A program made the position numbers and the translations under genes. This document shows positions 1,604-24,329 of a stretch of DNA of 64,000 bases, piece after piece. The notes beneath the pieces are model-generated. The model worked only from the letters and a program-made list of their open reading frames with translations. It did not search any database and had not been told where the DNA came from. How positions within the stretch are numbered: the stretch's first letter is position 1; every line of letters starts with the position of its first letter. Source of the stretch: Acidobacterium sp. S8 (GTDB lineage Bacteria > Acidobacteriota > Terriglobia > Terriglobales > Acidobacteriaceae); NCBI RefSeq assembly GCF_009765985.1, contig NZ_LMUM01000016.1, forward strand, positions 62,001-126,000. The letters are read 5' to 3'.

Positions 1604-2746
1604 ATGCGGCGAGTACATCTCGAAGTGAAGTGGCAGTTAGCATGGACATTCTTGCTCGTATATGCCGCAGCGGCGGTATGCGGATGTAAAGCACGGCCTG
1701 CAGCGCCAGCTACATCCTCTTTAGCCACAGAGGCTCCGGTGACCGGGCCGTTTTCCACCCAGGAGCTCCAGCAATTCGCCGCACTCGATCCCATCGATAC
1801 ACATACTCACGTTTATCAGAGCTCACCTGAATTGGTCGCATTGCTTGAGCGGCTGAATCTCCATATTCTCGACATCGTCGTGGCGCGCGATCCCGATCAG
1901 AAGTCGCTGGATGAAGAGCGGCGGCAGGTTTGGGGCTTTGTGAATGTCAGCCACGGATATGCAACTATGTGCACGACATTCGATCCATTTCTTTACCGTG
2001 AACCTTCTTTCAGGAATGCTGCTATCGCGGAGATCGATAACGATTTCGATCATGGAGCAGCAGCCGTGAAGATATGGAAGAACATTGGCGAACAGGTCAA
2101 AGATCCCAAGGGACGCTACCTGATGCCGGACGATCCTGTGTTTGAACCGATTTATAAGGAAATTTCAGATCGCGATAAAACACTCATCGCTCACCTGGCT
2201 GATCCAGATTCTATCTGGGAGCCGCCAACGCCTAAATCACCAGACTATGGGTATTACATGCAGCACCCAGAGTGGTACATGTATAAAAAGCCGAATGCGC
2301 CATCGAAGGCGGCGATTCTGGTAGCTCGCGATCATGTCCTCGAGAGGAATCCGAAGCTTCGTGTTGTGGGCGCGCACCTGGGCAGTATGGAAGCCGATTT
2401 CAAACTATTGGCGGATCGCCTTGACCGTTATCCGAACTTCGCAGTGGATATTGCAGCTCGCATGCCTTACATTGTTATGCTGCCGCGGACAGATGCGATT
2501 GCCTTCATCGAGAAGTATCAGGACCGGTTAATTTACGCGACCGATCACAGCCTTGCCCCAGAAGCAAAAGCTCAAGATGCAGTGAAGCAGTGGGAGAGCT
2601 CCTACGCCTTCGATTGGCGCTTCCTCGCGACATCCGATTCACTTCAATACAGGGATCATCAGGTGCAGGGGTTAGCTCTTCCCACCGCAGTACTGCACAA
2701 GCTTTACCATGACAACGCTCTGCACTGGATCCCAGGAGTCATGTAG
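1604..2746 (+). CDS. Exported, probably lipid-anchored amidohydrolase
   Basis: A 380-residue amidohydrolase-superfamily protein. Its N-terminus has a hydrophobic stretch ending in AAVCGCKA, compatible with a lipoprotein cleavage site at the second cysteine. Metal-binding signatures are IDTHTH (H67, H69), AVKIWK (a lysine in the place of the carboxylated lysine, about 156), LIAHLAD (about 197), GAHLG (258) and YATDH (D314). It resembles the preceding amidohydrolase only in overall fold; the two are not close copies. It ends one base before the start codon of the NagB-like gene, so the two are almost certainly co-transcribed and translationally coupled. Substrate unknown. Confidence 0.75.
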   Translation: MRRVHLEVKWQLAWTFLLVYAAAAVCGCKARPAAPATSSLATEAPVTGPFSTQELQQFAALDPIDTHTHVYQSSPELVALLERLNLHILDIVVARDPDQKSLDEERRQVWGFVNVSHGYATMCTTFDPFLYREPSFRNAAIAEIDNDFDHGAAAVKIWKNIGEQVKDPKGRYLMPDDPVFEPIYKEISDRDKTLIAHLADPDSIWEPPTPKSPDYGYYMQHPEWYMYKKPNAPSKAAILVARDHVLERNPKLRVVGAHLGSMEADFKLLADRLDRYPNFAVDIAARMPYIVMLPRTDAIAFIEKYQDRLIYATDHSLAPEAKAQDAVKQWESSYAFDWRFLATSDSLQYRDHQVQGLALPTAVLHKLYHDNALHWIPGVM

Positions 2747-2747
2747 G

Positions 2748-3521
2748 ATGCGAAGCTTCCAGGTTGAAACCGCAAGAGTCGAGATTTATCCAGATGCGGT
2801 TTCAATGGGAAAAGCAGCGGCACAGGCGGCAGCCGAGGCCATCAAGGAAATTGAAAAACGTGAAGAAACAATCAATGTGATTTTCGCTACTGGTGCTTCG
2901 CAGCTTGTTACGCTTGATGCGCTTACGAAGATGGACAATCTTCCATGGACCAGAGTGCGTGGTTTTCACATGGATGAATATATCGGCCTTCCGATCAGCC
3001 ATCCGGCGTCGTTTCGCGGATACCTGCGAGAGAAACTGACAGAGAAGGTGAGCCTGAGAGAATTCAATGAAGTGGATGGCACTGCGCCTGATGCCGAGGC
3101 ATTCAGCCGTGACTATGCCGCGAAGCTATGCATCGCTGAGCCTCAGCTTTGTCTCATGGGTATTGGAGAAAATGGGCATCTCGCGTTCAACGATCCGGGA
3201 GTAGCCGATTTTAATGACCCCTTGGATGTGAAGGTCGTTCATCTTGACCGTGTGTGCAGAGAGCAGCAAGCTGCCGAGGGATGGTTTGCCAGCACCGACG
3301 AGGTTCCCGAATCTGCGATCACCATTACAATCCCGGCACTTCTGCGCGTCCCGCGACTCATCGTGTCGGTTCCAGGAATCCGTAAGGCAACGATCGTTCG
3401 CCGTAGCCTGACTGAATCGATTTCTACCGATTGCCCTGCTACCATTCTGCGTACACATCCCAACGCCACAATCTACCTGGATGAAGCTTCAGCTGCGGAG
3501 CTGAACGATCTGCTTCCTTGA
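2748..3521 (+). CDS. nagB: Glucosamine-6-phosphate deaminase-like protein (NagB family)
   Basis: A 257-residue cytoplasmic protein of the NagB/6-phosphogluconolactonase fold; no signal peptide. The start at 2748 is chosen because GGAG lies at 2734-2737 and the ATG follows the upstream stop by one base. Sugar-phosphate site motifs are FATGAS (46-51), FHMDEYIGLP (D76 matches the catalytic Asp72 of E. coli NagB) and GIGENGHLAFNDP. In E. coli NagB the last motif reads with Asp141, His143 and Glu148; here the positions are Asn142, His144 and Asp149. The enzyme would turn glucosamine-6-phosphate or a related aminosugar phosphate into a ketose phosphate and ammonia. The altered residues leave open another aminosugar substrate. 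Confidence 0.8.
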   Translation: MRSFQVETARVEIYPDAVSMGKAAAQAAAEAIKEIEKREETINVIFATGASQLVTLDALTKMDNLPWTRVRGFHMDEYIGLPISHPASFRGYLREKLTEKVSLREFNEVDGTAPDAEAFSRDYAAKLCIAEPQLCLMGIGENGHLAFNDPGVADFNDPLDVKVVHLDRVCREQQAAEGWFASTDEVPESAITITIPALLRVPRLIVSVPGIRKATIVRRSLTESISTDCPATILRTHPNATIYLDEASAAELNDLLP

Positions 3522-3650: not shown

Positions 3651-3725
3651 CGCTTTCCATCGATCGCTTTCGTATTACCCTGACTCCAATTGCTCACTAG
3701 TCTTGATTTGAAAGGTCGGACCGCC

Positions 3726-6700
3726 ATGGCTCGATTTATCAGGTTAGCTATCTTCTTATTAGCCGCGCTTCTGGGAACAGCTGCCATGTGGGCGGCCATT
3801 ACCGGCTCGATTTCTGGAGTGGTTACTGACCCCAGCGGAGCCGTCATGCCAGGATTGACCGTAGTAGCTACGAGTTTGTCGACGAACGTGAAGACCACCG
3901 CAGTCAGCGATTCGAAGGGTTTTTACAGCTTCCCGACTTTGAGCGTTGACATTTATAACGTGACGGTCAGCCAGCAGGGTTACCGCGACTATATCCAAAC
4001 CGGCGTGAAGATAGATGCGAACTCCGCGCTCCGCATCGACATCATCATGCAGCTCGGCACGGTTACCAATACTGTCAGTGTAAAAAGCGACACTCTGCAA
4101 GTGGAGACACAGAGCACGCAGAATGGCGTAGTCATTGACGGCCAAAAGATTACTTCTGTGCCGTTGAACGGACGTTCCTACATCGACCTGTTGAAGTTGC
4201 AACCAGGCGTATCGCCTTATTCCCATAGCCAGGACAGCAGCACATCGGGAGTCGGAGCGACTCAGGTCTCGGGTGACCTGGACAACGGCCAACAATCCGT
4301 CAACGGGGGCCGCACCGGATCCAACGCATTCATGGTGAATGGGGCAAATGCGGAAGAAGGCGTCCACAACGGCGCCGCAATGATCCCCAATCTCGACTCC
4401 ATCGCCCAGTTCCGTATCATCACCAACAACTTCGATGCGGAGTATGGAAACTACAGCGGTGGCCAGGTCAATGTTGTCACCAAGTCCGGAACCAATCAGT
4501 ATCACGGCACGGCGTTCGATTTCCTGCGCAACACCGATCTGGATGCCAGAAACTACTACGCTCCGACACGCGGCGTTTTCATCCAGAATCAATTCGGCGG
4601 TACGGTGGGCGGTCCGATCCGCAAGAACAAGATCTTCTGGTTTGGCGATTACCAGGGAACCCGGCAGATTTTGGGCCAGACTCAGAGCTATCCCGTGCCT
4701 TCAGATGCCGATCGCACGGGTGACCTGACGGACCAGGCGGACGCGCTCACTGGCACAGTAGTCGGTGCCGGCTGGGCTAACACTCTCTCTCAGACATTGG
4801 GATATCCGGTAACGCAGGGAGAAAATTATTACACTCCTGGCTGCGCGGATCCCGGAACTTGCGTCTTTCCCAATGCTGTCATTCCTCAAAGCGCGTGGTC
4901 GCCGGTTGCGGTGAACTCGCTGAAGTTCCTCCCTACGGCCAATGGAGTTGTCAACAATACCCCTAACTACTCCACCTCTGCCTACAACGGGACATTGAGC
5001 GACGATAAGGGAAGCGGCCGGATCGACATTCCTACACGAATCGGCGCTGTGTTCGGCTATTACTTCATTGACCGATTCCACACCGAGAATCCGTATAGCC
5101 AGGTAAACGTCCCGGGCTTTTCTGCAACCAATCAGGGTCAAACGCAAATGATCAATTTAGGGTTGACGACCACGTTTAACTCATCGACCGTCAACGATCT
5201 TCGTCTCGCATATCTGCGCGACGTAAACCTGACCGGCCAACCAACCTCAGGCCAGGGTTTGGGTGTCTCGCTTGCCTCGCAGGGTTTTGTTACTCCGTGG
5301 GGCCCCGAGGGCGGTATCTCCCCTATCAACCCTGCGTACGAGGGTGTTTCAAACTTTATGTTCAACAACTTCAGCCTTGGTGTCCCGCCTGACGCATTGA
5401 GGCAATATAACAACACCTTCCAGATCATCGATAACGTCACCAAGGTCTTTGGAACGCACACTCTGCAGTTTGGCACCAACCTCCACTACAACCAGATCAA
5501 CGAGCGTAACTATGACTGCTACAACGGGTGTTTTGGTTTTGATGGCGCAGAGACTGGCCTGGACTTCGCCGATTTCCTGATTGGGGCGCCCACCAGTTTT
5601 GTGCAGGCCAGCCAGCAGCTTCTCGATTCGCGAAGCAAATATTATGGATTTTATGGTCAGGATAGCTGGCGTGTGAACCGCAATTTCACCCTCAACTACG
5701 GCCTGCGATGGGAAGCCGCTACTCCCTGGTACGACACCCAGAACAAGCTGGAAACGGTCGTTCCCGGTGAACAATCGCTATCATTTCCCGGTGCTCCCCT
5801 CGGTCTGGTGGTGCCCGGAGACCCGGGCATCCCGCGCACGCTCGGGCCAACCAAGTACACCAACTTTGGTCCCAGGATCGGCTTTGCCTGGGCGCCAGAC
5901 GTGAGCGACGGTTTCCTCGGCAAGGTGTTGGGCGCTGCCGGAAAAAGCAGCATACGTGCGGGTTACGGTATCTTCTATAGCTCTATTGAGGACGCCACCG
6001 GATTCGTCGAGGTAGGCGATGCTCCTTATGGCAACTACTATTCTGTGTCATCGACTGAGCTGGCCACACCGTTTGTCGATCGGCCATCGGGAACTCCGGC
6101 CGGACAGAAGTTTCCCTTCGTCTTTCCTCCAACCAACGTGTCTCCTCAGAATCCCGATACAACCTTTAATTGGGCGGGAGCGACACCCATCGGCGGATCC
6201 GACTATTACTACTACAAAAACAAGGTGCCCTATGTCCAGGAATGGGAACTCTCTCTTCAGCGGCAATTGGGGACTGCAACCGTACTCAGCGTGAATTACG
6301 TCGGGACCATCGGGCGGCAGCTGCTGACGTTTGAGGAATCAAATCCAGGAGACCAGTCCCTCTGCCTGCAATTGAGTAACCCAGCCAATGTAGCGCCTGG
6401 TACGACGACTTGCGGGCCGTTCGGGGAAGACACAGTTTATACCACGGCGAGTGGCCAGACAGTGAACGGAACCAGGACGACCTTCGGGATTAACTTCAAC
6501 AGCAATCCCTACATGAAGACCGCAGTCGGCTCCAGCTTCAACTCGCTGCAGGTGACTCTGGAGCACAACGAAAAATACCTGAACTTCCTCATTGGATATA
6601 CCTTTGAGAAGTCGCTGGATAACGGTTCGGACTCCTTTGATGCGACCAATCCGTTGAATCCGGCCCAAACCTACGCATTATCGAGCTTTAACGTTCCGCA

Positions 6701-7247
6701 TAACCTGGTCGCCAGCTACACCATACAATTGCCCTTCGATCACTTTATCGGCGGAGGGGATATTGCGAAGCTGTTCACCGCTGGATGGGAGCTTTCCGGC
6801 GTAGCTACGTTTGCCAAGGGAGAGCCGGTTACTCTCAATGAGAATGACGATAATTCACTGCTTGGTGCCTTCAATGCAAACGTAGATGTGCCAAACTACG
6901 CGAACAACGGCAGCCCTCTTTATATAAATCGAAACCCGCGAAAGGGGCTGCCATATTTCAATCCGAACTACTTCGTCCCGGAAACAATCGGGCAGGTAGG
7001 CAACGCAATGCGGCGATCCTTCTCCGGTCCTGGCATCAATAATTTTGACATGGCTCTGCTAAAGACCACTGATATTACCGAGAACACTAAGCTGCAGTTT
7101 CGGGCAGAAGCATTCAATGTCTTCAACCATACGCAGTTTACGAATCCGAATGGGCTCGTCAACAACACCGGCCAGGGTGGTTTCGGTTATGTAACTGGTG
7201 CCAACGATCCTCGTATCATGCAGGTTGCCTTGAAGTTCCTGTTCTAG
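3726..7247 (+). CDS. TonB-dependent receptor, Oar-like, with carboxypeptidase-regulatory domain
   Basis: An outer-membrane receptor of 1173 residues. The ATG at 3726 gives a normal signal peptide (MARFIRLAIFLLAALLG...) and has AAGG about ten bases upstream; an in-frame TTG at 3690 is less likely. After the signal peptide comes a CarboxypepD_reg-like domain (about residues 25-115, ITGSISGVVTDPSGA), then a plug region with LNGRSYIDLLKLQPGV, and a long beta-barrel ending in a terminal aromatic residue (ALKFLF), as expected for barrel assembly. Receptors of this type are abundant in Acidobacteriota and are thought to import oligosaccharides or peptides with TonB energy. It heads the cluster of exported oxidative enzymes at 7427-15883, so its ligand may be the substrate of those enzymes. 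Confidence 0.9.
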   Translation: MARFIRLAIFLLAALLGTAAMWAAITGSISGVVTDPSGAVMPGLTVVATSLSTNVKTTAVSDSKGFYSFPTLSVDIYNVTVSQQGYRDYIQTGVKIDANSALRIDIIMQLGTVTNTVSVKSDTLQVETQSTQNGVVIDGQKITSVPLNGRSYIDLLKLQPGVSPYSHSQDSSTSGVGATQVSGDLDNGQQSVNGGRTGSNAFMVNGANAEEGVHNGAAMIPNLDSIAQFRIITNNFDAEYGNYSGGQVNVVTKSGTNQYHGTAFDFLRNTDLDARNYYAPTRGVFIQNQFGGTVGGPIRKNKIFWFGDYQGTRQILGQTQSYPVPSDADRTGDLTDQADALTGTVVGAGWANTLSQTLGYPVTQGENYYTPGCADPGTCVFPNAVIPQSAWSPVAVNSLKFLPTANGVVNNTPNYSTSAYNGTLSDDKGSGRIDIPTRIGAVFGYYFIDRFHTENPYSQVNVPGFSATNQGQTQMINLGLTTTFNSSTVNDLRLAYLRDVNLTGQPTSGQGLGVSLASQGFVTPWGPEGGISPINPAYEGVSNFMFNNFSLGVPPDALRQYNNTFQIIDNVTKVFGTHTLQFGTNLHYNQINERNYDCYNGCFGFDGAETGLDFADFLIGAPTSFVQASQQLLDSRSKYYGFYGQDSWRVNRNFTLNYGLRWEAATPWYDTQNKLETVVPGEQSLSFPGAPLGLVVPGDPGIPRTLGPTKYTNFGPRIGFAWAPDVSDGFLGKVLGAAGKSSIRAGYGIFYSSIEDATGFVEVGDAPYGNYYSVSSTELATPFVDRPSGTPAGQKFPFVFPPTNVSPQNPDTTFNWAGATPIGGSDYYYYKNKVPYVQEWELSLQRQLGTATVLSVNYVGTIGRQLLTFEESNPGDQSLCLQLSNPANVAPGTTTCGPFGEDTVYTTASGQTVNGTRTTFGINFNSNPYMKTAVGSSFNSLQVTLEHNEKYLNFLIGYTFEKSLDNGSDSFDATNPLNPAQTYALSSFNVPHNLVASYTIQLPFDHFIGGGDIAKLFTAGWELSGVATFAKGEPVTLNENDDNSLLGAFNANVDVPNYANNGSPLYINRNPRKGLPYFNPNYFVPETIGQVGNAMRRSFSGPGINNFDMALLKTTDITENTKLQFRAEAFNVFNHTQFTNPNGLVNNTGQGGFGYVTGANDPRIMQVALKFLF

Positions 7248-7426: not shown

Positions 7427-8728
7427 ATGCTGCCCGAGCGTGAGCTCAAAAATAATCTGAATGATCGGCGATCTTTTCTTAAATTGCTGGCCGCTGCTCC
7501 TCTCTTCGCCACCATTGCCTCGCGAAGTTTTGCGAGCACCGTGGCGGCTACTACGGGAAAATCTTCCTCCGCCGATGTTTATACCCGTCTTGGGGTCCGG
7601 CCATTGATCAATGCGCGGGGGACGTGGACGTATCTGAGCGGGTCATTGGAATTACCGGGCGTGCGGGAAGCGGTCGAGGCTGCATCGCGACAATTTGTTG
7701 ACTTGTTTGAACTACAGCGCGCAGCGGGCAAAAAGCTTGCGGAGCTTTCTGGTGCCGAATCCGGAATGGTCACGTCTGGCTCGGCTGGTGCGATGGCTCT
7801 GGCGACTGCGGGCTGCATCGCCGGGACCGATCCAAAAAATGTGTGGCAACTGCCCGACACAACCGGTTTGAAACATGAAGTTGTGATGCTGGGAGGGCGG
7901 AGCGCATTCGACAGTGCGATACGCCTCGCCGGAGGAAAGTTGGTGCTTGCGCATGGAGTGGACAATCTGCAGTCGGCCATTACCCCGCAAACGGCCATGG
8001 TCTATACAACGTGGCGGGACGACCGCTTGCAGAATACGCTGAAGATCACGCGGGCAGCCGGCGTCCCCTTGCTATTGGACGATGCGGCCGGCATTCCCCC
8101 GTTTGAGAATTTCAGACGCTACGCAAAGATCGGCGTCGATCTTTATTGCTTTAGCGGTGGAAAGGGTTTGGGTGGTCCGCAGTGTTCCGGGGTGCTGCTA
8201 GGCCGGAAGGACCTGATCGATGCCGCAATGGCGAATAACAATCCATGGGAGGGCGCCGTATGTCGGCCCATGAAGGTCGGCAAAGAAGAGATTATAGGGA
8301 TTCTTGCAGCAGTCGAATATTGGTCTCAAGCTGATCTTGCGGACCTAACCAAAGAGTGGCAGAGCAGGGTCGAACGCATCCAGAAGCTAGTTCAAACCGT
8401 ACCAGGAGTCACTACATCCATCATGACCCCTCAAGACGAGAACAGCTATCCGACCCTGACGGTAAAGTGGGACGTGCAGCGGTTCGGTTTGACGGTGGAC
8501 CAATGCGCTCAACAGCTGCGGGAGGGCGAACCCCGTATCGAGGTGCTCACGAACAATAATCCAAGTGGAGTACCCGCAGTCCGCGAAGGCGATGACCCCA
8601 AGGCAAAAGAGGAGGCGCCTCCGAACGTGTTGCAAATTATCTCAATGACCTTACAGCAGGGAGAAGATCTGACGGTAGGGAATCGCCTACGTCAGATTCT
8701 TGACAAAGCCCGCAAACAATCGCAGTGA
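7427..8728 (+). CDS. Tat-exported SelA-fold PLP enzyme (D-glucosaminate ammonia-lyase-like)
   Basis: A 433-residue pyridoxal-phosphate protein of the SelA/DgaE (D-glucosaminate-6-phosphate ammonia-lyase) family. The N-terminus has a twin-arginine signal (NDRRSFLKLL, residues 12-20, hydrophobic to about 31, cleavage after SFA), so the folded, cofactor-loaded enzyme would be moved across the inner membrane. The PLP lysine is K246 in SGGKGLGGPQ, and LLLDDAAGIPP (215-225) supplies the Asp that contacts the pyridine nitrogen. The start follows AAGGAA. Known relatives remove ammonia or water from amino sugar acids or related substrates. Its stop overlaps the GTG start of the bicupin gene, so the two are translationally coupled. 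That the substrate is a free aminosugar acid is inference from the dehydrogenase, lactonase and RidA neighbours. Confidence 0.8.
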   Translation: MLPERELKNNLNDRRSFLKLLAAAPLFATIASRSFASTVAATTGKSSSADVYTRLGVRPLINARGTWTYLSGSLELPGVREAVEAASRQFVDLFELQRAAGKKLAELSGAESGMVTSGSAGAMALATAGCIAGTDPKNVWQLPDTTGLKHEVVMLGGRSAFDSAIRLAGGKLVLAHGVDNLQSAITPQTAMVYTTWRDDRLQNTLKITRAAGVPLLLDDAAGIPPFENFRRYAKIGVDLYCFSGGKGLGGPQCSGVLLGRKDLIDAAMANNNPWEGAVCRPMKVGKEEIIGILAAVEYWSQADLADLTKEWQSRVERIQKLVQTVPGVTTSIMTPQDENSYPTLTVKWDVQRFGLTVDQCAQQLREGEPRIEVLTNNNPSGVPAVREGDDPKAKEEAPPNVLQIISMTLQQGEDLTVGNRLRQILDKARKQSQ

Positions 8729-9672
8729 ACAGATATCTAGATCCCGAGAGACTTTCTTCGATCGCAATATGCCATGGGGCAGACAGCCGACGCCATGCCG
8801 TCGTGCTCGTCGCTCTGGTCATAGGAATTTTCTGCGCACCTCTGCTCCACGCGAACGATCGCAAGATCGATCCAACCTTTCTATATCGTGACACTTCTGC
8901 GGTTGGGGAGAAGCAGTCAGATATGACGACGAAGACGTGCCACTACCGGGCGTTGTTCGGGAAGGGAGACTCGGATACATCCGTAGTCGTCGGAGTAGCA
9001 CGTTATGGAGAAGTGGTGATTGATCCGAATGGCGTCTGCCGTTTGGTTCAATATTCAGACGAAGACCAGGTGTACGTGGTGCTCGAAGGCGCGGGCTCCG
9101 TGAAGTACGGAGATGCAATCGTCCCGCTGAAGAAAGAAGACTACTTATATATTCCATCAACGATTCCGCATGTTCTGAGCAATAAGTCAGACATGCCACT
9201 AACCGCGATCATTATGGGTTTTCGTACGAAAGGCTTTGAGAAAACTCAGCCACCGCCGCAGCCTCTAAAGGCCAATATCGAGGATGTGCCGACAACTATG
9301 GTGAGCGGCCATCCCGATTCGACTCGTTACCGTCTGCTGATGGGTGACGTCGACAGCAAGCGCGACCGCATTGCAGCCGGCCGCGTTTTGACCAGCCTCT
9401 TCCTAATGGAGATCGCACCAGGCGGTACTAACTTTCCTCATCACCATGAGCGCGAAGAGGAAATTTACCTGGTCTTGAGCGGCCACGGCGTGATGGTGGC
9501 AGGGAGCGGAATGGATGGAATCGCGGGGCGGCATCCCGCCAAAGCGGGGGATGCCTATTTCTTTCGGCTCAACTGCACCGTCGGATATTACAGTGCTGCC
9601 AACGTCAAGTCGCGTATTCTCGCCGTGCGCTCGTGGTATCCGGGTATGGTGCAAATAGGCGCAGAACACTAA
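8725..9672 (+). CDS. Exported two-domain cupin protein
   Basis: A 315-residue bicupin. It starts at a GTG that overlaps the preceding TGA (GTGA). The N-terminus carries about 25 polar residues and then a hydrophobic segment (VVLVALVIGIFCAPLLHA), compatible with a signal peptide or anchor. The first cupin barrel includes DQVYVVLEGAGSVKYGD and STIPHVLSN. The second has a clearer metal site, FPHHHEREEEIYLVLSGHG, with three consecutive histidines and the family glutamate. Exported bicupins can act as dioxygenases, isomerases or sugar-acid converting enzymes, and sequence alone does not decide. Its position between a PLP lyase and a cytochrome suggests a role on the same small sugar-derived molecule. 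Confidence 0.75.
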   Translation: MNRYLDPERLSSIAICHGADSRRHAVVLVALVIGIFCAPLLHANDRKIDPTFLYRDTSAVGEKQSDMTTKTCHYRALFGKGDSDTSVVVGVARYGEVVIDPNGVCRLVQYSDEDQVYVVLEGAGSVKYGDAIVPLKKEDYLYIPSTIPHVLSNKSDMPLTAIIMGFRTKGFEKTQPPPQPLKANIEDVPTTMVSGHPDSTRYRLLMGDVDSKRDRIAAGRVLTSLFLMEIAPGGTNFPHHHEREEEIYLVLSGHGVMVAGSGMDGIAGRHPAKAGDAYFFRLNCTVGYYSAANVKSRILAVRSWYPGMVQIGAEH

Positions 9673-9736
9673 GGCCAACTGCGCAAGCTTGGTGCTGGCC
9701 CAGTGGGTATCGAAGGTTGAAAGAGGTCTTTGGCGA

Positions 9737-10573
9737 ATGATGAGTTGGTGGCACACGATCTCCATCCCATGTTTGCTGCTTGGATTGGTATCGATCACGA
9801 ATCTGCGCGCACAACAACCGGCAAGCACTACTACTGCAGCGGATGTTCAAGGATCGATGCTCTTTACCTCCAACTGCGGGAGCTGCCACGGATCCGATGG
9901 CCGCGGGGGCGAACACGGTCCGGACATCGCATCTGCTCCAGACGTGCAGCGACTTGCCGATTCAGACCTGATTGCGATCGCAAAAAATGGAGTCTCCGGG
10001 ACTGGTATGCCTGCCTTTGGCTGGCTCGGCCAAGAGAAAGTGACCGCTATTATTCAATATTTACGAACTCTGCAAGGGCGACGAACCGACATCAAGCTCC
10101 CGGGAAACCCGAGGAGTGGAGAAGCTCTTTTCTTTGGTGAGGCACGATGCTCAGAATGCCATATGGTCAATGGGAAAGGCGGCTTTATTGGCAGTGATCT
10201 TTCGCTTTACGGCGCGAACGAAAGCGCAGGCCAGATTCGAAGCGTGATTTTGGATCCCGGAAATTTTTTGCCTCCCCAGAAGAAAGCTACAACCGTCGTG
10301 ACGAACACAGGACAGAAGTTCACTGGATTGCTCAAGGTGGACGATAATTTTTCCGTTTCGATCCAGACAATGGATGGAGACTTTCATTTTTTTCAGAAGT
10401 CACAACTCGCCCAAATAGATCTTGGGTCTTACTCGTTGATGCCGGTCGACTACGGATCGATGTTGAATGACGAACAGATAAATGACCTGGTCAGTTATCT
10501 CCTTCATGTGGGAAGTGAAAATTCCAGGCACTCTCCAAAACAATCTTCAAAATCTGACGATGATGATGAATAA
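9737..10573 (+). CDS. Di-heme c-type cytochrome, exported
   Basis: A 278-residue protein with a signal peptide (ending near NLRAQQ) and two heme c attachment motifs, CGSCH at 47-51 and CSECH at 138-142, each followed by a candidate methionine ligand region (TGMPAFG for the first). The second half resembles the heme-binding domain seen in Planctomycetes and Verrucomicrobia proteins. The ATG at 9737 is chosen because GAAAGAGG lies about ten bases upstream. It is the only redox carrier in the cluster and is the likely electron acceptor for the PQQ dehydrogenase at 14249-15883, passing electrons to the respiratory chain. A C-terminal acidic tail (DDDDE) overlaps the next gene's start region. Confidence 0.85.
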   Translation: MMSWWHTISIPCLLLGLVSITNLRAQQPASTTTAADVQGSMLFTSNCGSCHGSDGRGGEHGPDIASAPDVQRLADSDLIAIAKNGVSGTGMPAFGWLGQEKVTAIIQYLRTLQGRRTDIKLPGNPRSGEALFFGEARCSECHMVNGKGGFIGSDLSLYGANESAGQIRSVILDPGNFLPPQKKATTVVTNTGQKFTGLLKVDDNFSVSIQTMDGDFHFFQKSQLAQIDLGSYSLMPVDYGSMLNDEQINDLVSYLLHVGSENSRHSPKQSSKSDDDDE

Positions 10574-11594
10574 TCGCTTATCTTTTTGCTCCAGGGACTC
10601 GTGGTTCAACATCGTCACCCTCAAGGTTGCGATAGCCGCTTTGACCTTGCTCATGATTGCCGGGTCGGCCCACCGTCTAAGTCATGGAGAAACGAGCAAC
10701 GGTGCGTTCGAACTTCAGGTGCTCACACCGGAGTTCTGGACTCTCTTTGATCGGAAAGCACAGCTTACCAAGCTGGCTTCGGGCTTCGGTTTTACGGAGG
10801 GGCCTGTTTGGGATAGCTCCGGTTATCTCTGGGTGAGCGATGAAACTCTCAACAAAATTTTCAAGGTAAACACTTCCACTGGGCAAAAACAGGAAATCAT
10901 CTCTCTGGGCGACCCCGATGGCAATACCTATGATCCACAACATCGCCTTTTAGACTGTGCCAGCGTTCTGCGGGCGATCATCCGTCTATCGCCCGATGGC
11001 AAAAGCTACAAAATAGTCGTGGATCATTACCAAGGCAAGCGTTTGAACAGTCCCAACGACGTAGTGCTCGGTCCGGATGGCGCTATTTACTTTACGGATC
11101 CAACGTCTGACTTGCCTCGCGGACAAAAGCAGGAACTCCCCTTTAAAGGCGTCTACCGCATCGCTCCGGACGGTCAACTTCAACTGTTGACAAAGGACGT
11201 GGAAGATCCGAATGGACTTGCGTTTTCTCCAGACGGCACCAAGTTGTATGTTGATGACTCCACCCAGAGAAATATCCACGTATACGACTTTCACGCAGAC
11301 GGTGGGTTGAGCAATGGACGGATCTTCGGCACAGAGCCAGGTGGTCCAAAGGATGGTGTACCAGACGGCATGAAGGTTGATCGAAATGGCAATCTGTATG
11401 TGGTAGGTCCAAGGGGTATATGGGTATGGTCCCCGCATGGCGTTCATCTGGGGACCATCGTAGTTCCCGAGCAGCCGGCAAATCTCGCATGGGGAGACCC
11501 CGACTACTCAACCCTGTACATAACTGCAACGACATCCGTGTACAAAATAGGGACCCGAGCACACGGATTCGTCCCCTACCTGCAGGCGCACTAA
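10560..11594 (+). CDS. Exported SMP-30/gluconolactonase-type lactonase
   Basis: A six-bladed beta-propeller of the SMP-30/gluconolactonase/LRE family, about 344 residues. The start lies in an ATGATGATG run at 10560-10568 that overlaps the end of the cytochrome gene by up to 14 bases; which ATG is used is not clear. A hydrophobic N-terminus (about residues 15-35) predicts export. Family metal-site motifs are EGPVWDSSGYLWVSDE, SPNDVVLGPDGAIYFTDP and LAFSPDGTKLYVDDS. Such enzymes hydrolyse sugar lactones, the direct products of sugar dehydrogenases, to sugar acids. Placement between the cytochrome and the dehydrogenase of the same cluster strongly supports a lactone made by the PQQ enzyme as substrate. 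Confidence 0.85.
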   Translation: MMMNNRLSFCSRDSWFNIVTLKVAIAALTLLMIAGSAHRLSHGETSNGAFELQVLTPEFWTLFDRKAQLTKLASGFGFTEGPVWDSSGYLWVSDETLNKIFKVNTSTGQKQEIISLGDPDGNTYDPQHRLLDCASVLRAIIRLSPDGKSYKIVVDHYQGKRLNSPNDVVLGPDGAIYFTDPTSDLPRGQKQELPFKGVYRIAPDGQLQLLTKDVEDPNGLAFSPDGTKLYVDDSTQRNIHVYDFHADGGLSNGRIFGTEPGGPKDGVPDGMKVDRNGNLYVVGPRGIWVWSPHGVHLGTIVVPEQPANLAWGDPDYSTLYITATTSVYKIGTRAHGFVPYLQAH

Positions 11595-11609
11595 TCTTTC
11601 GGAGGAGAA

Positions 11610-12872
11610 ATGATCGATCGGTTCAAGCGCAGCCTTCCATTCTTTGCCTGCCTTTTTTTCTGCGCGTTCGGGCTCAATCTCGTTGGCCAAGACGTCGGAT
11701 TCAAAGTCATTCAACCGCAGGGCTATGTGGCTGCCGATTCGTTCTATAGTCCTGGGATTCTGGCCGGGGGCACGCTCTACATATCTGGTCAAGGAAGCCG
11801 TAAGCCCGACGGCACACGTCCACCGGGGTTAGCCGAACAAGTCGCGCAAGCCTTCAGCAACGTTCATGCTGTGCTGAAGGGTGCAGGCATGGATTTTGGG
11901 AATGTTGTTTGGATGAACATCTATCTCGCGGATGAGCACGATGTGGCAGACATGAATGAGGTTTATTGGCAGACAATCGGCCAAAGCCCTCCAGCGCGAA
12001 CTGTTCTCACGGTTGCTGCTCTTCCAGATGGGGAAAAGGTGGAAATCAACTGCATTGCCGTAGCAGACACGATTCACAGGAAAGCGATTTGGCCACCAGG
12101 CTGGGCGCGCGGGCCGCAGGTGGATCCTCCTGCAATCCGGGCAGGTGAAATCTTGTACCTGTCAGCGCAGGGAGGCCGGGATCCGCTTACCGGGAAACAA
12201 GCGTCTGACTTTCCCGGAGAAGTCAGGCAAGCTCTCGACAATGTAAGTGCAGTGCTCAAAGCTGCCCAGCTAAGCATGAAGAATGTTCTATGGGTGAACC
12301 CCTACATGAGCGTCGGTGGGCAATACGACGTTATGGGCAAGATTTATGCGAGTTATTTCGAATTCGGCAATACACCGGGCCGCGGGACCATCCAGGTCGT
12401 CGATCTTCCTAAAGGGGATCACATCGCATTTAGTTGCATCGCCGGAGTAGACCTCAGCAAACGCAAAGCAATCCGGCCAAAAAATATGCCTCCCAGCCAC
12501 ACCGCCAGCCCGGGCATTCTCTATGGCGACACTCTGTATCTCTCTGCTAAAGATGGCTTCATTCCGGATCAAGGAATCGTCACGCCTGACCTTGAGCTGC
12601 AGCTGCGGCAATCCATGCGCAATCTTTTGGATGGATTGCAGGAAGCTGACATGGATTTCTCTGATGTTGTTTTCAGTACTGTCTATTTGCGCCAGATACA
12701 GGACGCTGATCGAGTGAACGCGTTATATGGCAAGTTTTTTAAGAGCCGTTATCCTGCCAGATCGGCGCTGCAGCAGAACTTCGAAGTGCACGATGAGGCT
12801 GCCGAGCAAATCTCCTTCATCGCGGTAAAACACTCATCCGCCGGTCCTGCGGACAAAGGCGCACGTAGATGA
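11610..12872 (+). CDS. Exported protein with three RidA (YjgF/UK114) domains
   Basis: A 420-residue protein with a signal peptide (cleavage near LVGQD) and three RidA domains in series, at about 33-153, 160-280 and 288-408. RidA proteins are usually single domains of about 130 residues that trimerise and hydrolyse reactive enamines and imines released by PLP enzymes. The conserved catalytic arginine is present in every copy: R130 (PPARTVL), R258 (TPGRGTI) and R384 (YPARSAL). A single chain could therefore form the normal trimer by itself, an intramolecular pseudo-trimer. The start has an excellent GGAGGAG six bases upstream. Its stop overlaps the next gene's start (ATGA). Export of RidA is unusual and matches the exported PLP enzyme nearby. 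Confidence 0.85.
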   Translation: MIDRFKRSLPFFACLFFCAFGLNLVGQDVGFKVIQPQGYVAADSFYSPGILAGGTLYISGQGSRKPDGTRPPGLAEQVAQAFSNVHAVLKGAGMDFGNVVWMNIYLADEHDVADMNEVYWQTIGQSPPARTVLTVAALPDGEKVEINCIAVADTIHRKAIWPPGWARGPQVDPPAIRAGEILYLSAQGGRDPLTGKQASDFPGEVRQALDNVSAVLKAAQLSMKNVLWVNPYMSVGGQYDVMGKIYASYFEFGNTPGRGTIQVVDLPKGDHIAFSCIAGVDLSKRKAIRPKNMPPSHTASPGILYGDTLYLSAKDGFIPDQGIVTPDLELQLRQSMRNLLDGLQEADMDFSDVVFSTVYLRQIQDADRVNALYGKFFKSRYPARSALQQNFEVHDEAAEQISFIAVKHSSAGPADKGARR

Positions 12873-14245
12873 AATTAACTGCCGTCAGCTGCTTCCTGGC
12901 CTTTGCTCTAGTGCTCTCCTTGGCGAGTGCTCAGCAGTCAACTCCCGCTCCATCGTCTGCATGTCAAATTCATGCAGTAGTCTTCGACGGTTGGCAAGCC
13001 CAGGAGGTAGCGAACGAATGGGTGAAGTTGACCTTTGTTCCTCAGTTGGGCGGTCGGCTGATGCAGGTCAGTTTCAATGGACACCCTTATTTATTCGTCA
13101 ACCAGGTTTACAAAGGCAAGTACATTTCCCCGGCCGAGGCTGCGGGACGTTGGATCAACTATGGTGGCGACAAGATCTGGCCTTTACCGGAAGGCAATGA
13201 TGACGAGCAGCACTGGACAGGAGCTTCCACTCCTCTTGACGACGGCGCATATGCCTTCTCGATTCTGTCACAAAACAATCGCTGCACAGTGCGGTTGGAG
13301 GGTCCCCCGGACCCGCCCACGGGCCTTCAATACACGCGTGAGATAAGTATCGGCAGCGACTCCCCTGAAATCTTTTTTCATGCGATTACCAGGAACATCA
13401 CGGGTCATTCGATCGCCTGGTCTGTGCAGTCCGTCTCTCAGTATGACCTGTCCGACGCCGGCGATCCCAGTCAGTACAATCATGACTTTTGGGCCTTTGC
13501 GCCGCTCAATCCCCGCTCCTCATATTTGAACGGCTATCATGTCCGCGATGGGCTGGCGAATGATCCCTCTTTTAGCGTAAAGGACGGATTATTTCGGCTA
13601 AATTGGAAATACCTTGAAAACGAGGTGTGGCTCGACTCCACCGCCGGTTGGATTGCATTAGTCGATGGCGCAACTCACTATGCGATGGTCGAAAAGACCA
13701 GGTACATTGAGGGTGCAGATTATCCCGATAAGGCTTCGGTTATCTTCTACAAGAACGGACCCACTTTGCAACTGAATGCTCAGGGTATGCCCTACCTGAC
13801 CTCGAAAAATCTTAAAGAGACTCCCTACTATATGGAGGCAGAACTGAACAGCCCTATGGCAGTCTTGGCGTCCGGCGAAACATACGCAATGGATACCTAC
13901 TGGTTTCCGTCACGTATGAGTCCCGACTTGAAAACTGTTACCGAGGCAGGCATGGTGGGTCGACCTCTCGTCGCAAAGAACAGCGCCGGAAAGCTCGAAC
14001 TTTCGGGCAGTTTTGGCGTCTTCTTTCCCGGCATGCTGAAGGCATATCTTTATGATGGAGGCGGCGCAGAAACAGGGGAGGTCTACCTCCAATCGGTTCA
14101 ACCGCAAGACCCGGTTCAGCTCTCACAAACGATAACCACGACGAAGAGCGTGGCGCGAGTCTCCGTTCACTTGATCGATAGCAGCGGGCTCGATCGCGGA
14201 GCTCTAGGGGAAGTATTTGTAACCGGAAGGGAAGAAGGACGCTGA
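12869..14245 (+). CDS. Exported DUF4380-like protein
   Basis: A 458-residue protein with a clear signal peptide (cleavage after LASAQQ). The body begins with WVKLTFVPQLGGRLMQVSFNG and has INYGGDKIWPLPEG, which I associate with the DUF4380 group, a galactose-mutarotase-like beta-sandwich. The biochemical role of the group is not established; a sugar-binding or mutarotase-type function is plausible from the fold. Its ATG overlaps the stop of the RidA gene by four bases, and the PQQ dehydrogenase follows after three bases, so the three genes are tightly coupled. Confidence 0.65.
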   Translation: MKLTAVSCFLAFALVLSLASAQQSTPAPSSACQIHAVVFDGWQAQEVANEWVKLTFVPQLGGRLMQVSFNGHPYLFVNQVYKGKYISPAEAAGRWINYGGDKIWPLPEGNDDEQHWTGASTPLDDGAYAFSILSQNNRCTVRLEGPPDPPTGLQYTREISIGSDSPEIFFHAITRNITGHSIAWSVQSVSQYDLSDAGDPSQYNHDFWAFAPLNPRSSYLNGYHVRDGLANDPSFSVKDGLFRLNWKYLENEVWLDSTAGWIALVDGATHYAMVEKTRYIEGADYPDKASVIFYKNGPTLQLNAQGMPYLTSKNLKETPYYMEAELNSPMAVLASGETYAMDTYWFPSRMSPDLKTVTEAGMVGRPLVAKNSAGKLELSGSFGVFFPGMLKAYLYDGGGAETGEVYLQSVQPQDPVQLSQTITTTKSVARVSVHLIDSSGLDRGALGEVFVTGREEGR

Positions 14246-14248
14246 CCC

Positions 14249-15883
14249 ATGAGTCTACGGAGGAGATGGCTAATCGCTGTGTACGCGTATATGTTGTCTA
14301 TTCCCTTGAGCGGGCAGGATAGTGATCCATCCCTCGCACGTGCTCCAGGCGTACAAGCCTCACAGCTGCTCTCTCGAACGATTAAAGACGACTGGCCTTC
14401 TTACAACGGTGATTACACAGGAAGGCGCTTTAGCAGCCTTACGCAAATCACACCGCAAAATGTCCAACATCTTCAGGCTCAATGGGTCTTCCACAGCAGA
14501 AACGCTGGCATTCTTGAAGTTACCCCCGTCGTTGTCGATGGAATCATGTACGTCACGGCTTCCAATGATGCATATGCCCTCAATGCGCAAACCGGACAGA
14601 TCCTGTGGCACTACTCTCGGCCGGTTTCCCGGGGCTTGATCGATGACGCCTCCGGCCATATCAGCCGCGGTGTTGCTCTCCTGGGTACGCGGCTTTACAT
14701 GGAAACCGACAATGCTCACCTCTTGTGCCTGGACGCACGATCGGGAAACCTGATCTGGGATGTGGCATACGCCGACTGGAACAAGAACTATGGAGGCACG
14801 AGTGCTCCACTGATCGTAAAAGACAAAGTACTGGTAGGAACCTCAGGCGGCGACGACGGAGTTCGCGGCTTTCTTGCTGCCTTCGACTCTATAACTGGCA
14901 AGTTGGCATGGCGTCTGTGGACGATTCCCGGCCCGGGAGAACCCGGCTCTTCAAGCTGGCCTGGAGATAGTTATCTGCACGGTGGTGGGACAACCTGGAT
15001 GCCGGGAACCTATGATCCAGAGCTGAATATCCTATACTGGGGCACCAGCAACGCAGCGCCGGATTACGATGACAGCATCCGGCCCGGGGATGACCTTTAC
15101 ACCGCGAGTCTGCTGGCGATCGATCCGGATAGCGGAAAATTGAAATGGTACTTCCAATTCACACCGCATGATTTATATGACTACGATGGTGTGGAGACAC
15201 CTGTCCTTGTAGACATGCAATATGAGGGAAAACCGAGGAAGCTTCTAATCGAGGCAAACCGAAATGGGTTTATCTATCTCCTTGATCGAACCAATGGAAA
15301 ATTCCTATCGGCTACGCCATTTGCAAAGAAGATCAATTGGGCGACAGGCGTGGATGCCAATGGTCGTCCGATGATTACGGACTTAAAGCCGACCCCGGAT
15401 GGAACCCTAATCTGTCCCGGCGTTGAAGGTGCTACCAACTGGTTCTCGCCTTCTTATAGCGAAGTGACGCACCTGTTCTACTTTTTGGCTTTTGAGGGCT
15501 GCTCGGTCTATTTTGTAAAACCAGCCCCATTTGAAGAGGGCAAAGAGTATTACTCAACAGGAACCAAGCACGATCCAAACGGCAAAACGGAACGGGTTCT
15601 TTTTTCCTTCGATCCCCAAACTAAGACCATTGCATGGCGGTACCCGCAAGCAGGGAATTCTCATTCCTGGGGTGGCGTCATGACAACCGCAACTGGCCTT
15701 GTCTTTTTTGCCGATGATGCAGATTTTTTTGAAGCAGCGGATGCCAAGACCGGCAAATCGCTGTGGCACTTTAACACCGGGCAAACTCTTCACGCATCTC
15801 CGATGAGCTATGCGGTATGGGGCAAACAGTACGTCGCTATCGCGTCAGGCTCTGATCTATTCAGTTTTGCGCTGCCGGAGTGA
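14249..15883 (+). CDS. Exported PQQ-dependent alcohol/sugar dehydrogenase
   Basis: An eight-bladed PQQ propeller of 544 residues with a signal peptide and no fused cytochrome domain. W-motif repeats such as DAYALNAQTGQILWHY, LLCLDARSGNLIWD and LLAIDPDSGKLKWY support the fold, and WPSYNGDYTGRRFSSL matches the N-terminus of quinoprotein dehydrogenases. The catalytic aspartate region reads LYDYDG, giving D311 and a second aspartate, D313, two residues on; this pair is the signature that binds lanthanides in XoxF- and PedH-type enzymes. The vicinal cysteine pair of methanol dehydrogenase is absent (DDASGHISRG at 132-141). Electrons should pass to the di-heme cytochrome in the same cluster. A sugar or aminosugar substrate is inferred from the lactonase neighbour. 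Confidence 0.85.
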   Translation: MSLRRRWLIAVYAYMLSIPLSGQDSDPSLARAPGVQASQLLSRTIKDDWPSYNGDYTGRRFSSLTQITPQNVQHLQAQWVFHSRNAGILEVTPVVVDGIMYVTASNDAYALNAQTGQILWHYSRPVSRGLIDDASGHISRGVALLGTRLYMETDNAHLLCLDARSGNLIWDVAYADWNKNYGGTSAPLIVKDKVLVGTSGGDDGVRGFLAAFDSITGKLAWRLWTIPGPGEPGSSSWPGDSYLHGGGTTWMPGTYDPELNILYWGTSNAAPDYDDSIRPGDDLYTASLLAIDPDSGKLKWYFQFTPHDLYDYDGVETPVLVDMQYEGKPRKLLIEANRNGFIYLLDRTNGKFLSATPFAKKINWATGVDANGRPMITDLKPTPDGTLICPGVEGATNWFSPSYSEVTHLFYFLAFEGCSVYFVKPAPFEEGKEYYSTGTKHDPNGKTERVLFSFDPQTKTIAWRYPQAGNSHSWGGVMTTATGLVFFADDADFFEAADAKTGKSLWHFNTGQTLHASPMSYAVWGKQYVAIASGSDLFSFALPE

Positions 15884-16422: not shown

Positions 16423-17919
16423 TTATTTTGTAAAAATCATAAGTGCAGCACTAATTACTGGCATGGAAATGCTGAAAGACCCACCTGTGGTATCTATATC
16501 TTCCACTGCCTGATTTCCATGAATGAATCCATCGTTGCTGTCATCGAAGGTCTGCCCCGCAAAACTTATCCCTGTTTTGGATTGATAGTTAGGAGCAGTC
16601 AAACGGAAAATCCTGGCATGACCGTATGCTCCAAGAGCGATATTGACGCTTCCGGATTCATTTTCATCTTTATTAATCAACACTAGACGGATTACGCCCG
16701 AGTTATCAATTGTTGCCCATGCCTTTAGATTGGCATGAGTATTTAACGTTACAGGGAGAAGATGGCATTTATTGCCTGTCGCCGCCTGGAAGAATAACAA
16801 GCCATAGTAGAGAGGATTGACTGTAGTCGTATAGCTTGCAACGTCAGCTGTTTGCTTTGCCGTTATACTAAATGGATTATATGGATTGGATGGATCTGAT
16901 CCTACCTGCCAATTTACCCCAGCCACGCCAATGTTGACATATTCAAACATTGAATCAATAGCCCAAAGCGCTGATCCGAACGCATCGCTAATGCCTTCGC
17001 CGCCCCCGTTATAAAGTGAATTCATCTCGCCCATTCGAAATGGAAGATGATATTGTTGACTGGTCGCAACCGCTGCCTCTACAGCCTTCGGTCCAGCTGT
17101 GGCAGCAATCGGAGTCAGTAACGTGTCAGGCGGATTGTTCAGCAAGCCATTCGCAACATAATAGTGAGCGCTGAAGGTGGCAAGCGCAGACGCTTCGGCA
17201 GCATCATAAGGCCCGATATTTGACAACATGGTTGGAGACGCCCATGAGGCGCCCATAAGCTTAGTAGAGCCCGAGAGCAGGGGAAAAATATTTTCCTTCC
17301 AGATGTTAAATTCCGCAAGATAGTTCTCGAACGTATAAGGGGCCTTCCTATAGCCTTTTTGCGGATATTGATCCGGTTCGTTTCCTATTTCGATTGCATC
17401 GATTGAGCCTTTCGGCATTTGATTAATGTAATCTTTCGCCTGATCCATTGCTAGATTGACATTTCCGGCCGCGAGATTCACTCCTAAGTAGAAATGAACA
17501 TCCAGAGCATTTGCCAATTCGACAAATGGACGAATCGTAGTTGAAGTTGGCTCCCCGCTCTCATCTGTGCTGTTCCCTCCGATTCTCAAGATGATTGGTC
17601 CCGATCCATAAGTCATAAGATTTCGAATAAGCTGTCTATATGCTTCGTTCACTCCAGATACAGAATCACCCATCATAGCTTGAGATGTACCCCATTCATT
17701 CGAGAGTCCCATGAAAGTAGGCGAGATTGCGCGTAGCGGTGTAGTTCCAATACTGACATCGGCAAATCCTTCTGAACTTGCGGATGTGGTTTCGCTTCCA
17801 GTCGATTTAGCCGACATATCTCCTGTTCCTGAGGTAGCCCCGCAACCGCCTATGAAAATCACGACTGCGATAGCGAGCAGACCAATAGTTAAACGCGCTA
17901 GATTAGACGGATACCTCAT
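16423..17919 (-). CDS. Glycoside hydrolase family 79-like lipoprotein (beta-glucuronidase/heparanase type)
   Basis: A 498-residue exported protein with a lipobox ending at C26 (IFIGGC), then a Ser/Thr-rich linker and a TIM-barrel. The catalytic acid/base is E181 in IEIGNEPDQY and the nucleophile is probably E298 in FRMGEMNSLYNGG, both typical of GH79 in clan GH-A. LRIGGNSTDES is another conserved strand. A C-terminal beta-domain ends in SISMPVISAALMIF. The start at 17919 is used because GAGGA lies about eight bases upstream; an in-frame start 30 bases earlier exists. The gene is visibly richer in A+T than its neighbours and lies between an IS66 remnant and an IS3 remnant, so acquisition by transfer is likely. 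Substrates would be glucuronic acid-containing glycans. Confidence 0.8.
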   Translation of the reverse strand: MRYPSNLARLTIGLLAIAVVIFIGGCGATSGTGDMSAKSTGSETTSASSEGFADVSIGTTPLRAISPTFMGLSNEWGTSQAMMGDSVSGVNEAYRQLIRNLMTYGSGPIILRIGGNSTDESGEPTSTTIRPFVELANALDVHFYLGVNLAAGNVNLAMDQAKDYINQMPKGSIDAIEIGNEPDQYPQKGYRKAPYTFENYLAEFNIWKENIFPLLSGSTKLMGASWASPTMLSNIGPYDAAEASALATFSAHYYVANGLLNNPPDTLLTPIAATAGPKAVEAAVATSQQYHLPFRMGEMNSLYNGGGEGISDAFGSALWAIDSMFEYVNIGVAGVNWQVGSDPSNPYNPFSITAKQTADVASYTTTVNPLYYGLLFFQAATGNKCHLLPVTLNTHANLKAWATIDNSGVIRLVLINKDENESGSVNIALGAYGHARIFRLTAPNYQSKTGISFAGQTFDDSNDGFIHGNQAVEDIDTTGGSFSISMPVISAALMIFTK

Positions 17920-18070
17920 GATTGCGTCCTCACCTGCTTCTATCGGCATCCGGTCGACAATCTTCAGGAATGAAAAGGGGATTGGCTTGAGCTACAACCG
18001 CTAATTAGTTCGACTTCGAATACGATTTGCTCGAAGGCAAGGGAGAGGACACGGCTCGAAGCATGCACGC

Positions 18071-24299: not shown

Positions 24300-24329
24300 C
24301 TCAAACTGTGAACGACAAACAGGAGAAAA

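Follow-up and report, generated by a model that had tools for sequence, protein, structure and literature searches.

The stretch of Acidobacterium sp. S8 DNA analysed here (contig NZ_LMUM01000016.1, positions 62,001 to 126,000; 64,000 nucleotides, hereafter the window) carries seven co-directional open reading frames (ORFs) on the + strand, spanning window positions 7427-15883. These code for a pyridoxal phosphate (PLP) enzyme, a bicupin, a di-heme cytochrome c, a lactonase-like protein, a protein with three RidA domains in a single chain (RidA3), a DUF4380-like protein and a quinoprotein-like beta-propeller. A sequence-only reading had proposed that they make up an exported pathway for the oxidation and deamination of an amino sugar. 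In following up this proposal, we found its best-supported part to be the pairing of an exported PLP enzyme with an exported RidA, which, judging by the linkage of their genes, very probably cooperate.

Gene layout and export signals

The first gene of the cluster (7427..8728) encodes a SelA/DgaE-like enzyme with an N-terminus of the twin-arginine translocation (Tat) type, for which we propose a role as an amino-sugar-acid ammonia-lyase. It overlaps by 4 bp the gene for the bicupin (8725..9672), which contains two Cupin_2 domains with conserved H239, H240, H241 and E245, and whose start codon is uncertain. The gene for the cytochrome (9689..10573; two CxxCH motifs) is followed by that for an SMP-30/gluconolactonase-like putative lactonase (10560..11594), where the ORF opens at 10482 and ATG 10560, within the end of the cytochrome gene, is proposed as the better start. 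RidA3 (11610..12872) comes next, overlapping by 4 bp the gene for the DUF4380-like protein (12869..14245), and the quinoprotein dehydrogenase-like beta-propeller (14249..15883) closes the series. Once the start at 10560 is adopted, the remaining intergenic gaps measure 17 bp or less, so that, together with the overlaps, the genes are arranged as in one operon. Pfam matches above the gathering score were obtained for Aminotran_5/SelA, Cupin_2, Cytochrom_C, SGL (163 bits), three Ribonuc_L-PSP stretches and PQQ, while both matches of the DUF4380-like protein, which weakly resembles mutarotases, fall below curated cut-offs (DUF4380 itself scores 24.8 versus 29.4 bits). The seven ORFs are real, and the families first assigned to them agree with Pfam and NCBIfam, DUF4380 only below its cut-off.

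All seven proteins had been said to carry export signals, and a hydrophobic N-terminal stretch was indeed found in seven out of seven, with an 11-residue Kyte-Doolittle maximum of 2.08-3.42 within the first 60 residues. The same maximum is 0.59 in the neighbouring NagB-like protein, and 1.05 and 1.45 in two other genes of the window. These export calls come from a hydrophobicity heuristic, not from a dedicated signal-peptide predictor. The PLP enzyme has in addition the Tat motif DRRSFLK, whose Arg14-Arg15 pair is invariant in all 36 aligned PLP rows.

The PLP-RidA pair in relatives and elsewhere in the genome

Conservation was surveyed in 200 genomes of the order, in which triple-RidA homologues were called at E 1e-40 and PLP-family matches at E 1e-60. 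A triple RidA was found in 14 of these genomes and a PLP-family match in 51, of which 13 are orthologues of the window type (more than 500 bits, 58-100% identity; the next match scores 257 bits). All 13 genomes with a window-type orthologue also encode the triple RidA. In 12 of them the two genes lie no more than 3 kb apart (in eight, no more than 200 bp), and in the remaining genome they are on different contigs; the triple-RidA gene of the 14th genome sits on a 3.5 kb contig. In 11 of the 14 neighbourhoods, DUF4380 and PQQ-like genes lie close to the PLP gene or to RidA; the three exceptions are two short contigs, of 3.5 and 4.9 kb, and, for the split genome, the contig that carries RidA. 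Genes for cytochromes, SMP-30 proteins, cupins, barrels, NagB-like and RraA-like proteins occur in subsets of the 14.

A scan of named genomes by RidA homology, which took the best 80 of 138 relatives, yielded 79 loci. Of these, 75 bear Acidobacteriota names (among them Paracidobacterium acidisoli, KBS 83, KBS 96, Bryobacterales and Sulfotelmatobacter), and the other four are labelled Alphaproteobacteria. A RidA3 ORF was scored in 77 loci (75 clusters at 95%), of which 41 have a PLP-family gene on the same strand no more than 300 bp away and 49 have one within 6 kb. The 46 loci that hold both a PLP gene (more than 300 bits) and RidA3 contain DUF4380 (30 loci), PQQ-like (28), barrel (22), cytochrome (20), SMP-30 (18), cupin (16), NagB-like (6) and RraA1 (6) genes, counts that are lower bounds since many contigs are short. 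Writing P for PLP, U for cupin, C for cytochrome, S for SMP-30, R for RidA3, D for DUF4380 and Q for PQQ-like, we counted 30 gene-order patterns among these loci; some stem from cut contigs, and the longer contigs differ in both order and strand. True reshuffles include P-U-C-S-R-D-Q, C-S-R-P-D-Q, and C-S with an inverted Q-D followed by U-P-R. That content is kept despite this shuffling speaks for a functional link between the PLP enzyme, RidA3 and their recurring neighbours. The co-occurrence of export-type PLP, triple RidA, PQQ-like, DUF4380, SMP-30 and cytochrome genes anticipated by the sequence-only reading is thus borne out in both surveys; conserved gene order, to which that reading had also looked, is to the letter often lost outside this genome, and it is the gene content that persists.

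The idea that every triple RidA goes with a PLP enzyme was rejected, as a PLP gene scoring above 300 bits accompanies only 11 of the 39 RidA3 loci below 600 bits versus 35 of the 38 at 600 bits or more, a split that is partly circular because the RidA3 profile was built from PLP-associated loci. Enolase-superfamily dehydratase genes, some with Tat-type N-termini, were observed beside or near triple RidA in three loci (L097:10113-12193, L107:10212-11324 and L117:5408-6802; the L, G and C handles are ours), with a low-scoring RidA3 in L097 and L107 and a gene of the dihydrodipicolinate synthase (DHDPS) family also nearby in L097. It is possible that these neighbours represent further extracytoplasmic sugar-acid pathways. 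Four triple-RidA genes lie in metagenome-assembled genomes labelled Alphaproteobacteria (L080, L081, L084, L087), with no PLP gene in the stretch.

The pairing extends beyond this operon. Three more PLP paralogues, all with Tat-type N-termini, are encoded on contig 26 of the window's genome; two of them flank a Tat-type RidA gene (L006:16333-16800), and a RidA gene of the general secretory (Sec) type (L007:13477-14007) is found 0.3 kb from the third. Each of the three PLP loci of this genome, which together contain four PLP genes, therefore holds an export-type RidA. Seven RidA genes are present in all, four with export-type N-termini and three without a signal. The fourth export-type RidA gene, on contig 27 (L197:1991-5553), lies directly 3' of, or overlaps by its start codon with, a Tat-motif flavin amine oxidase gene, and converges on the gene for a class I/II aminotransferase, also of the Tat type; together they represent another kind of predicted exported imine-forming set. 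All four export-type RidA genes accordingly accompany Tat-type, potentially imine-forming enzymes. We also examined 33 four-kilobase PLP loci, 29 from as many other genomes and four from the window's genome itself, and found a RidA ORF in 27; a single RidA is shared by two of these, and some of the loci hardly differ. Of the six others, three belong to the window type and have their RidA at a distance of 2.9-3.0 kb, one comes from the split genome, and two lack a RidA.

A parallel arrangement was found on plasmid pACIX902 of Granulicella tundricola, where the order runs barrel (carboxypeptidase-regulatory), RraA, PLP, RidA, PLP, amidohydrolase/deacetylase, lactonase, BBE-domain oxidase, hypothetical, beta-galactosidase (glycoside hydrolase family GH35). 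Judged by eye, the N-termini of the PLP, RidA and lactonase proteins are of the Tat type, those of the deacetylase and beta-galactosidase of the Sec type, that of RraA is hydrophobic and the BBE protein has no signal. RraA, two PLP genes, RidA, BBE and lactonase also lie together on contig 26 of the window's genome, with a deacetylase further along. Going by family names, the plasmid operon would encode a glycosidase, a C1 oxidase, a lactonase, a deacetylase, a PLP lyase, RidA and a pyruvate-type aldolase, and it reads as the logic of the window operon built from other oxidase and lactonase families.

These neighbourhoods bear on the alternative that the pair acts outside the cytoplasm as a dehydratase of free beta-hydroxy amino acids (of the serine/threonine type, or D-forms), the sugar-oxidising genes being mere neighbours in a general scavenging cluster. 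The classical partners of RidA are reported to make 2-aminoacrylate, and six of the 46 loci have the PLP enzyme and RidA3 without the other five genes, some on short contigs. Set against this, DUF4380, PQQ-like, SMP-30, lactonase, GH35 and NagB-like genes recur around the pair, and the closest lyase of characterised function uses an amino-sugar acid; we regard the amino acid dehydratase as quite unlikely.

Active-site features of the PLP enzyme and RidA3

The structural model of the PLP enzyme (pLDDT 80, pTM 0.75) matches Cap15 (8t7j; Z 35.9, 345 aligned residues, 2.4 Å) and D-glucosaminate-6-phosphate ammonia-lyase (DGL; Z 34.3, 351 aligned residues, 2.8 Å), with SelA (Z 23.9) far below both. 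Residues K213 and R226 of DGL (chain numbering; K213 is Lys-217 in the numbering of PMC9529869) correspond to K246 and R260 of the PLP enzyme, both invariant in 36 of 36 orthologues. The two proteins thus have the fold, the PLP lysine and the carboxylate-binding arginine in common. They differ in that the phosphate residue of DGL, R301, aligns with an invariant T343, and in that the His162-His163 pair of DGL is absent from all 36 orthologues, two of which carry a single His nearby. Arg332 and Arg346 of DGL fall outside the range aligned. This pair is also absent from the three paralogues and from 40 of 40 distant acidobacterial loci, three of which have one His, at the first position. The window enzyme has a Tat signal, moreover, and falls below the curated DgaE models (155 of 385 bits for TIGR01437 and 143 of 600 bits for NF047797). 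Its claimed relationship to D-glucosaminate-6-phosphate ammonia-lyase therefore stands as regards fold, Lys and Arg, whereas by curated cut-offs and active-site residues it is not a DgaE.

In the DGL study, the H163A mutant is reported to release free enamine into solution, and enamines of this sort are said there to be broken down by RidA-type enzymes (PMC9529869). Taken together, the missing His pair, the change from R301 to T343 and the enamine release by the His-163 mutant make the window enzyme look like an ammonia-lyase that would act on a non-phosphorylated substrate and release an enamine. In a quick tree, the 11 window-type PLP rows included formed one supported group, with several long-branch warnings. 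PLP paralogues at L006:14672-16285 and L185:10710-12308 have a C-terminal extension of about 100 residues, and proteins of 520-575 aa occur in many distant loci too.

The strongest rival to an ammonia-lyase is chemistry of the Cap15 type, in which the PLP enzyme would be an O2-dependent oxidase or oxidative decarboxylase of a sugar amino acid and RidA would hydrolyse the resulting imine. Structurally Cap15 is as close as DGL, a point that counts against our assignment, and the likeness extends to a SelA-like ancestry and to an amino acid carried on a sugar moiety; available passages liken Cap15 to SelA and have it act on glycyl-uridine (PMC6384614), describe Cap15 and PvdN as oxidative-amidation PLP enzymes, and discuss, for another PLP enzyme, how the lack of a proton donor could favour its reacting with O2 (PMC11794154). 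The same sources present Cap15 as a phosphate-requiring, O2-dependent monooxygenase-decarboxylase of capuramycin biosynthesis (PMC6384614, PMC11794154). At the position of T343, however, Cap15 has an Arg, and it has a His-containing loop; its product is a carboxamide, which would leave no need for a RidA, and the lactonases, deacetylases and RraA aldolase homologues of the clusters fit a keto-deoxy acid better. We therefore consider Cap15-type chemistry improbable here. PvdN differs from the window enzyme in being biosynthetic, and we know of no RidA partner for it. The likeness is that this PLP enzyme of pyoverdine biosynthesis is named periplasmic in a title cited by PMC11794154.

RidA3 scores well over the superfamily cut-offs (PF01042, 191 versus 27.3 bits; TIGR00004, 207 versus 106.25 bits), and the claimed triple RidA is confirmed by three PF01042 domains above cut-off and by a model that is confident across domains (pLDDT 89, pTM 0.87). 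The equivalents of Arg105, which we take to be needed for imine hydrolysis in Rid/YjgF proteins, are kept in 51/52, 52/52 and 44/52 rows for domains 1, 2 and 3, so that most rows have the catalytic Arg in all three domains. RidA proteins are trimers, and a single three-domain chain could therefore form a whole trimer. Known RidA proteins such as UK114 share the RidA fold and are single-domain trimers of the cytosol or of organelles; the window protein differs in combining three domains in one export-type chain. A chorismatase-like identity was rejected: chorismatases rank high when the whole chain is compared, with 12-13% identity and a template-modelling (TM) score, relative to the query, of about 0.52, whereas individual domains resemble RidA structures with identities that reach about 43%.

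Several observations count against the favoured reading. The second Glu of the ...EIEAIA motif, presumably a mark of the archetypal RidA subfamily, is Asn in the first domain of 39 out of 52 rows, so we file RidA3 in the Rid/YjgF superfamily and not in that subfamily. No PLP-family gene lies within 6 kb in 28 of the 77 RidA3 loci, although some of those contigs are short. In a distant set of 40 acidobacterial family members, chosen among 80 matches listed (with a match in 39 of 297 genomes of the phylum), RidA is near only nine, a minimum because the RidA profile missed an annotated RidA beside a Rhizobium homologue (L186); adjacency is clearly not universal among distant members of the family. 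In this same set, an EF_0837-type amidohydrolase is near nine and a loose Tat pattern is present in 31. The Rhizobium homologue has no Tat signal, keeps the His-His pair and adjoins a RidA gene, which disposes of the rule that the loss of the DGL histidines makes a RidA partner necessary: the missing His by itself is not what does so. On a Sinorhizobium meliloti plasmid, a SelA/DgaE-like protein (L187:5995-7590) is encoded with phosphoenolpyruvate mutase and cytidylyltransferase genes and no annotated RidA, a biosynthetic setting of the phosphonate type, so members of this PLP family need not share one chemistry. The plasmid homologues are represented by three loci among 40 matches listed.

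A proposed extracytoplasmic route for amino sugars

Upstream of the operon lie genes for a TonB-receptor-like outer-membrane barrel with a carboxypeptidase-regulatory domain (3690..7247, +; OMP_b-brl_4, CarboxypepD_reg) and a NagB-like protein below equivalog cut-offs (2709..3521, +). Both had been noted beside the cluster and are present there, the NagB-like protein having no signal and being predicted cytoplasmic. On the other side, a protein with a GH79 C-terminal domain is encoded at 16426-17949 (-), and the region 21051-26848 (+) contains a second barrel receptor, a sulfatase with an SGSH_C (N-sulphoglucosamine-sulfohydrolase C-terminal) domain and an FGE-sulfatase-domain protein of the sulfatase-modifying-factor type. 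This set looks like one for the use of sulfated glycosaminoglycan-type material, and it fits, weakly, a diet of sulfated amino sugars. Towards its end the window also contains a 105-base unit in two tandem copies, 88% matching (58637-58848), and a strong positive AT skew of 0.249 across 4 kb (60001-64000).

The evidence leaves about even chances that an amino sugar is oxidised and deaminated outside the cytoplasm, probably in the periplasm, by the products of this operon. The data behind it are gene linkage, export-type N-termini, retained and lost residues, and folds; the substrate, the order of the steps, catalysis and the release of an enamine are what we infer. The sugar or an oligosaccharide would cross the outer membrane through the neighbouring barrel, the quinoprotein-like propeller would oxidise C1 to a lactone with the di-heme cytochrome taking the electrons, and the SMP-30 enzyme would open the lactone to an amino-sugar acid. 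The Tat-type PLP enzyme would then bind the alpha-amino acid end, with R260 on the carboxylate and K246 as base, and eliminate the C3 hydroxyl; without the proton-donor His of DGL, the enamine would be released. RidA3 would hydrolyse the enamine or imine to a 2-keto-3-deoxy acid and ammonia, and in those clusters that include an exported RraA-type protein, the keto-deoxy acid may be split further into pyruvate and an aldehyde. Linkage, the DgaE relationship and the parallel pACIX902 operon lend partial support to the exported pathway as first proposed, and its quinoprotein step is weakened.

The weakening concerns the claimed step by a PQQ (pyrroloquinoline quinone) dehydrogenase and a di-heme cytochrome. 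The propeller has the PQQ Pfam match and exceeds the cut-off of the PQQ alcohol dehydrogenase model (TIGR03075, 496.8 bits against 480.05), and the cytochrome has its two CxxCH motifs. The propeller gains more bits, however, against the model for acido-empty-quinoprotein group A (TIGR04528), where its 547 bits remain below the cut-off of 650. In the window's genome, rated 99.99% complete, neither PqqC (55 versus 240 bits) nor PqqE (66 versus 381 bits) is over its cut-off, a further count against this step; PqqC is over cut-off in two of the 21 genomes searched. The segment DDASGH stands where 1kv9 has CC, and no Cys is the common residue there in 23 rows; the vicinal Cys pair of PQQ alcohol dehydrogenases lies, we assume, over PQQ. 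At what we take to be PQQ or metal positions, the ligand Glu is replaced by Asp (D202, 23 of 23 rows), while E90 and R140 are kept in 22 of 23 rows and W250, N268, D311, D313 and R338 in all 23, the D-x-D pair presumably resembling that of lanthanide enzymes. Two quinoproteins over the acido-empty group A cut-off are encoded in a genome (G000 C29:53537-54967 and C27:281147-282580) for which no PqqC or PqqE was found over cut-off, and no paper naming an acido-empty quinoprotein turned up in a search of the open-licence literature.

The lack of PqqC and PqqE matches over cut-off and the replaced residues, in the roles we assume for them, favour the alternative that the quinoprotein-like protein is no dehydrogenase here, having no PQQ or another cofactor. 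C1 oxidation would then take place elsewhere, and the operon would process only pre-oxidised sugars, such as aldonic acids. The other PQQ and metal positions are kept, however, and the di-heme cytochrome would suit as electron acceptor; cells can, in addition, import PQQ from their surroundings, so that synthesis by the host is not strictly needed. We judge this alternative rather unlikely, though less so than the two rivals above, and it is compatible with the rest of the favoured route. A further point against that route is that no clear N-deacetylase was recognised in the window operon. Two upstream PF04909 amidohydrolases were rejected as pathway members, since they do not recur in the neighbourhoods of relatives except for one weak AH2 match; EF_0837-type amidohydrolase/deacetylase genes are present in three loci (L185, L007 and L115).

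The closest known system is the ong pathway for oxidised chitin in Pseudoalteromonas prydzensis, which, in excerpts of its description, combines a PLP deaminase (OngC), a RidA (OngD) and a deacetylase (OngB), the OngD gene being essential, alongside the PLP deaminase, for growth on GlcNAc1A by this cytoplasmic pathway (PMC9537276). It resembles the proposed route in its TonB-type import, a C1-oxidised amino-sugar acid, and a PLP deaminase with RidA. It differs in that OngB and OngC are predicted to be cytoplasmic, whereas the window PLP enzyme and RidA have export-type N-termini; in that OngD is a single-domain RidA of 127 aa, against three domains here; and in that OngC has been labelled a putative deaminase of D-amino acids, against a DgaE-like enzyme here (PMC9537276). 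PLP-RidA pairing is thus known so far from inside cells, and what is new is that both partners carry export-type N-termini. Among the literature matches listed (titles and abstract starts of open-licence papers), no exported RidA or exported PLP-RidA pair is described, in line with the earlier statement that a PLP ammonia-lyase and RidA working outside the cytoplasm are undescribed; term searches in the text of PMC7315648 and PMC5900883 had no hits.

More broadly, and tentatively, Acidobacteria may run a general extracytoplasmic imine chemistry, in which exported RidA proteins would be dedicated to Tat-exported imine or enamine formers, a main-branch PLP lyase without a proton donor would feed a RidA pseudo-trimer, and amino sugars would be broken down outside the cytoplasm, in Entner-Doudoroff-like fashion, to keto-deoxy acids and perhaps pyruvate. 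Work on RidA treats it as protecting PLP enzymes of the cytoplasm from damage by enamines. If true, a conserved pairing of exported PLP and RidA proteins would mean that a common soil phylum both uses and controls enamine chemistry beyond the cytoplasm, and RidA would gain a direct catabolic role in place of a housekeeping one. This bears on OngD, whose role in the use of oxidised GlcNAc, for which it is essential, is called unknown in a passage of PMC9537276. It also proposes functions for the exported SelA-like, RidA, RraA and DUF4380 proteins of Acidobacteria, which may take part in turning over amino-sugar polymers that are sulfated or of the chitin type.

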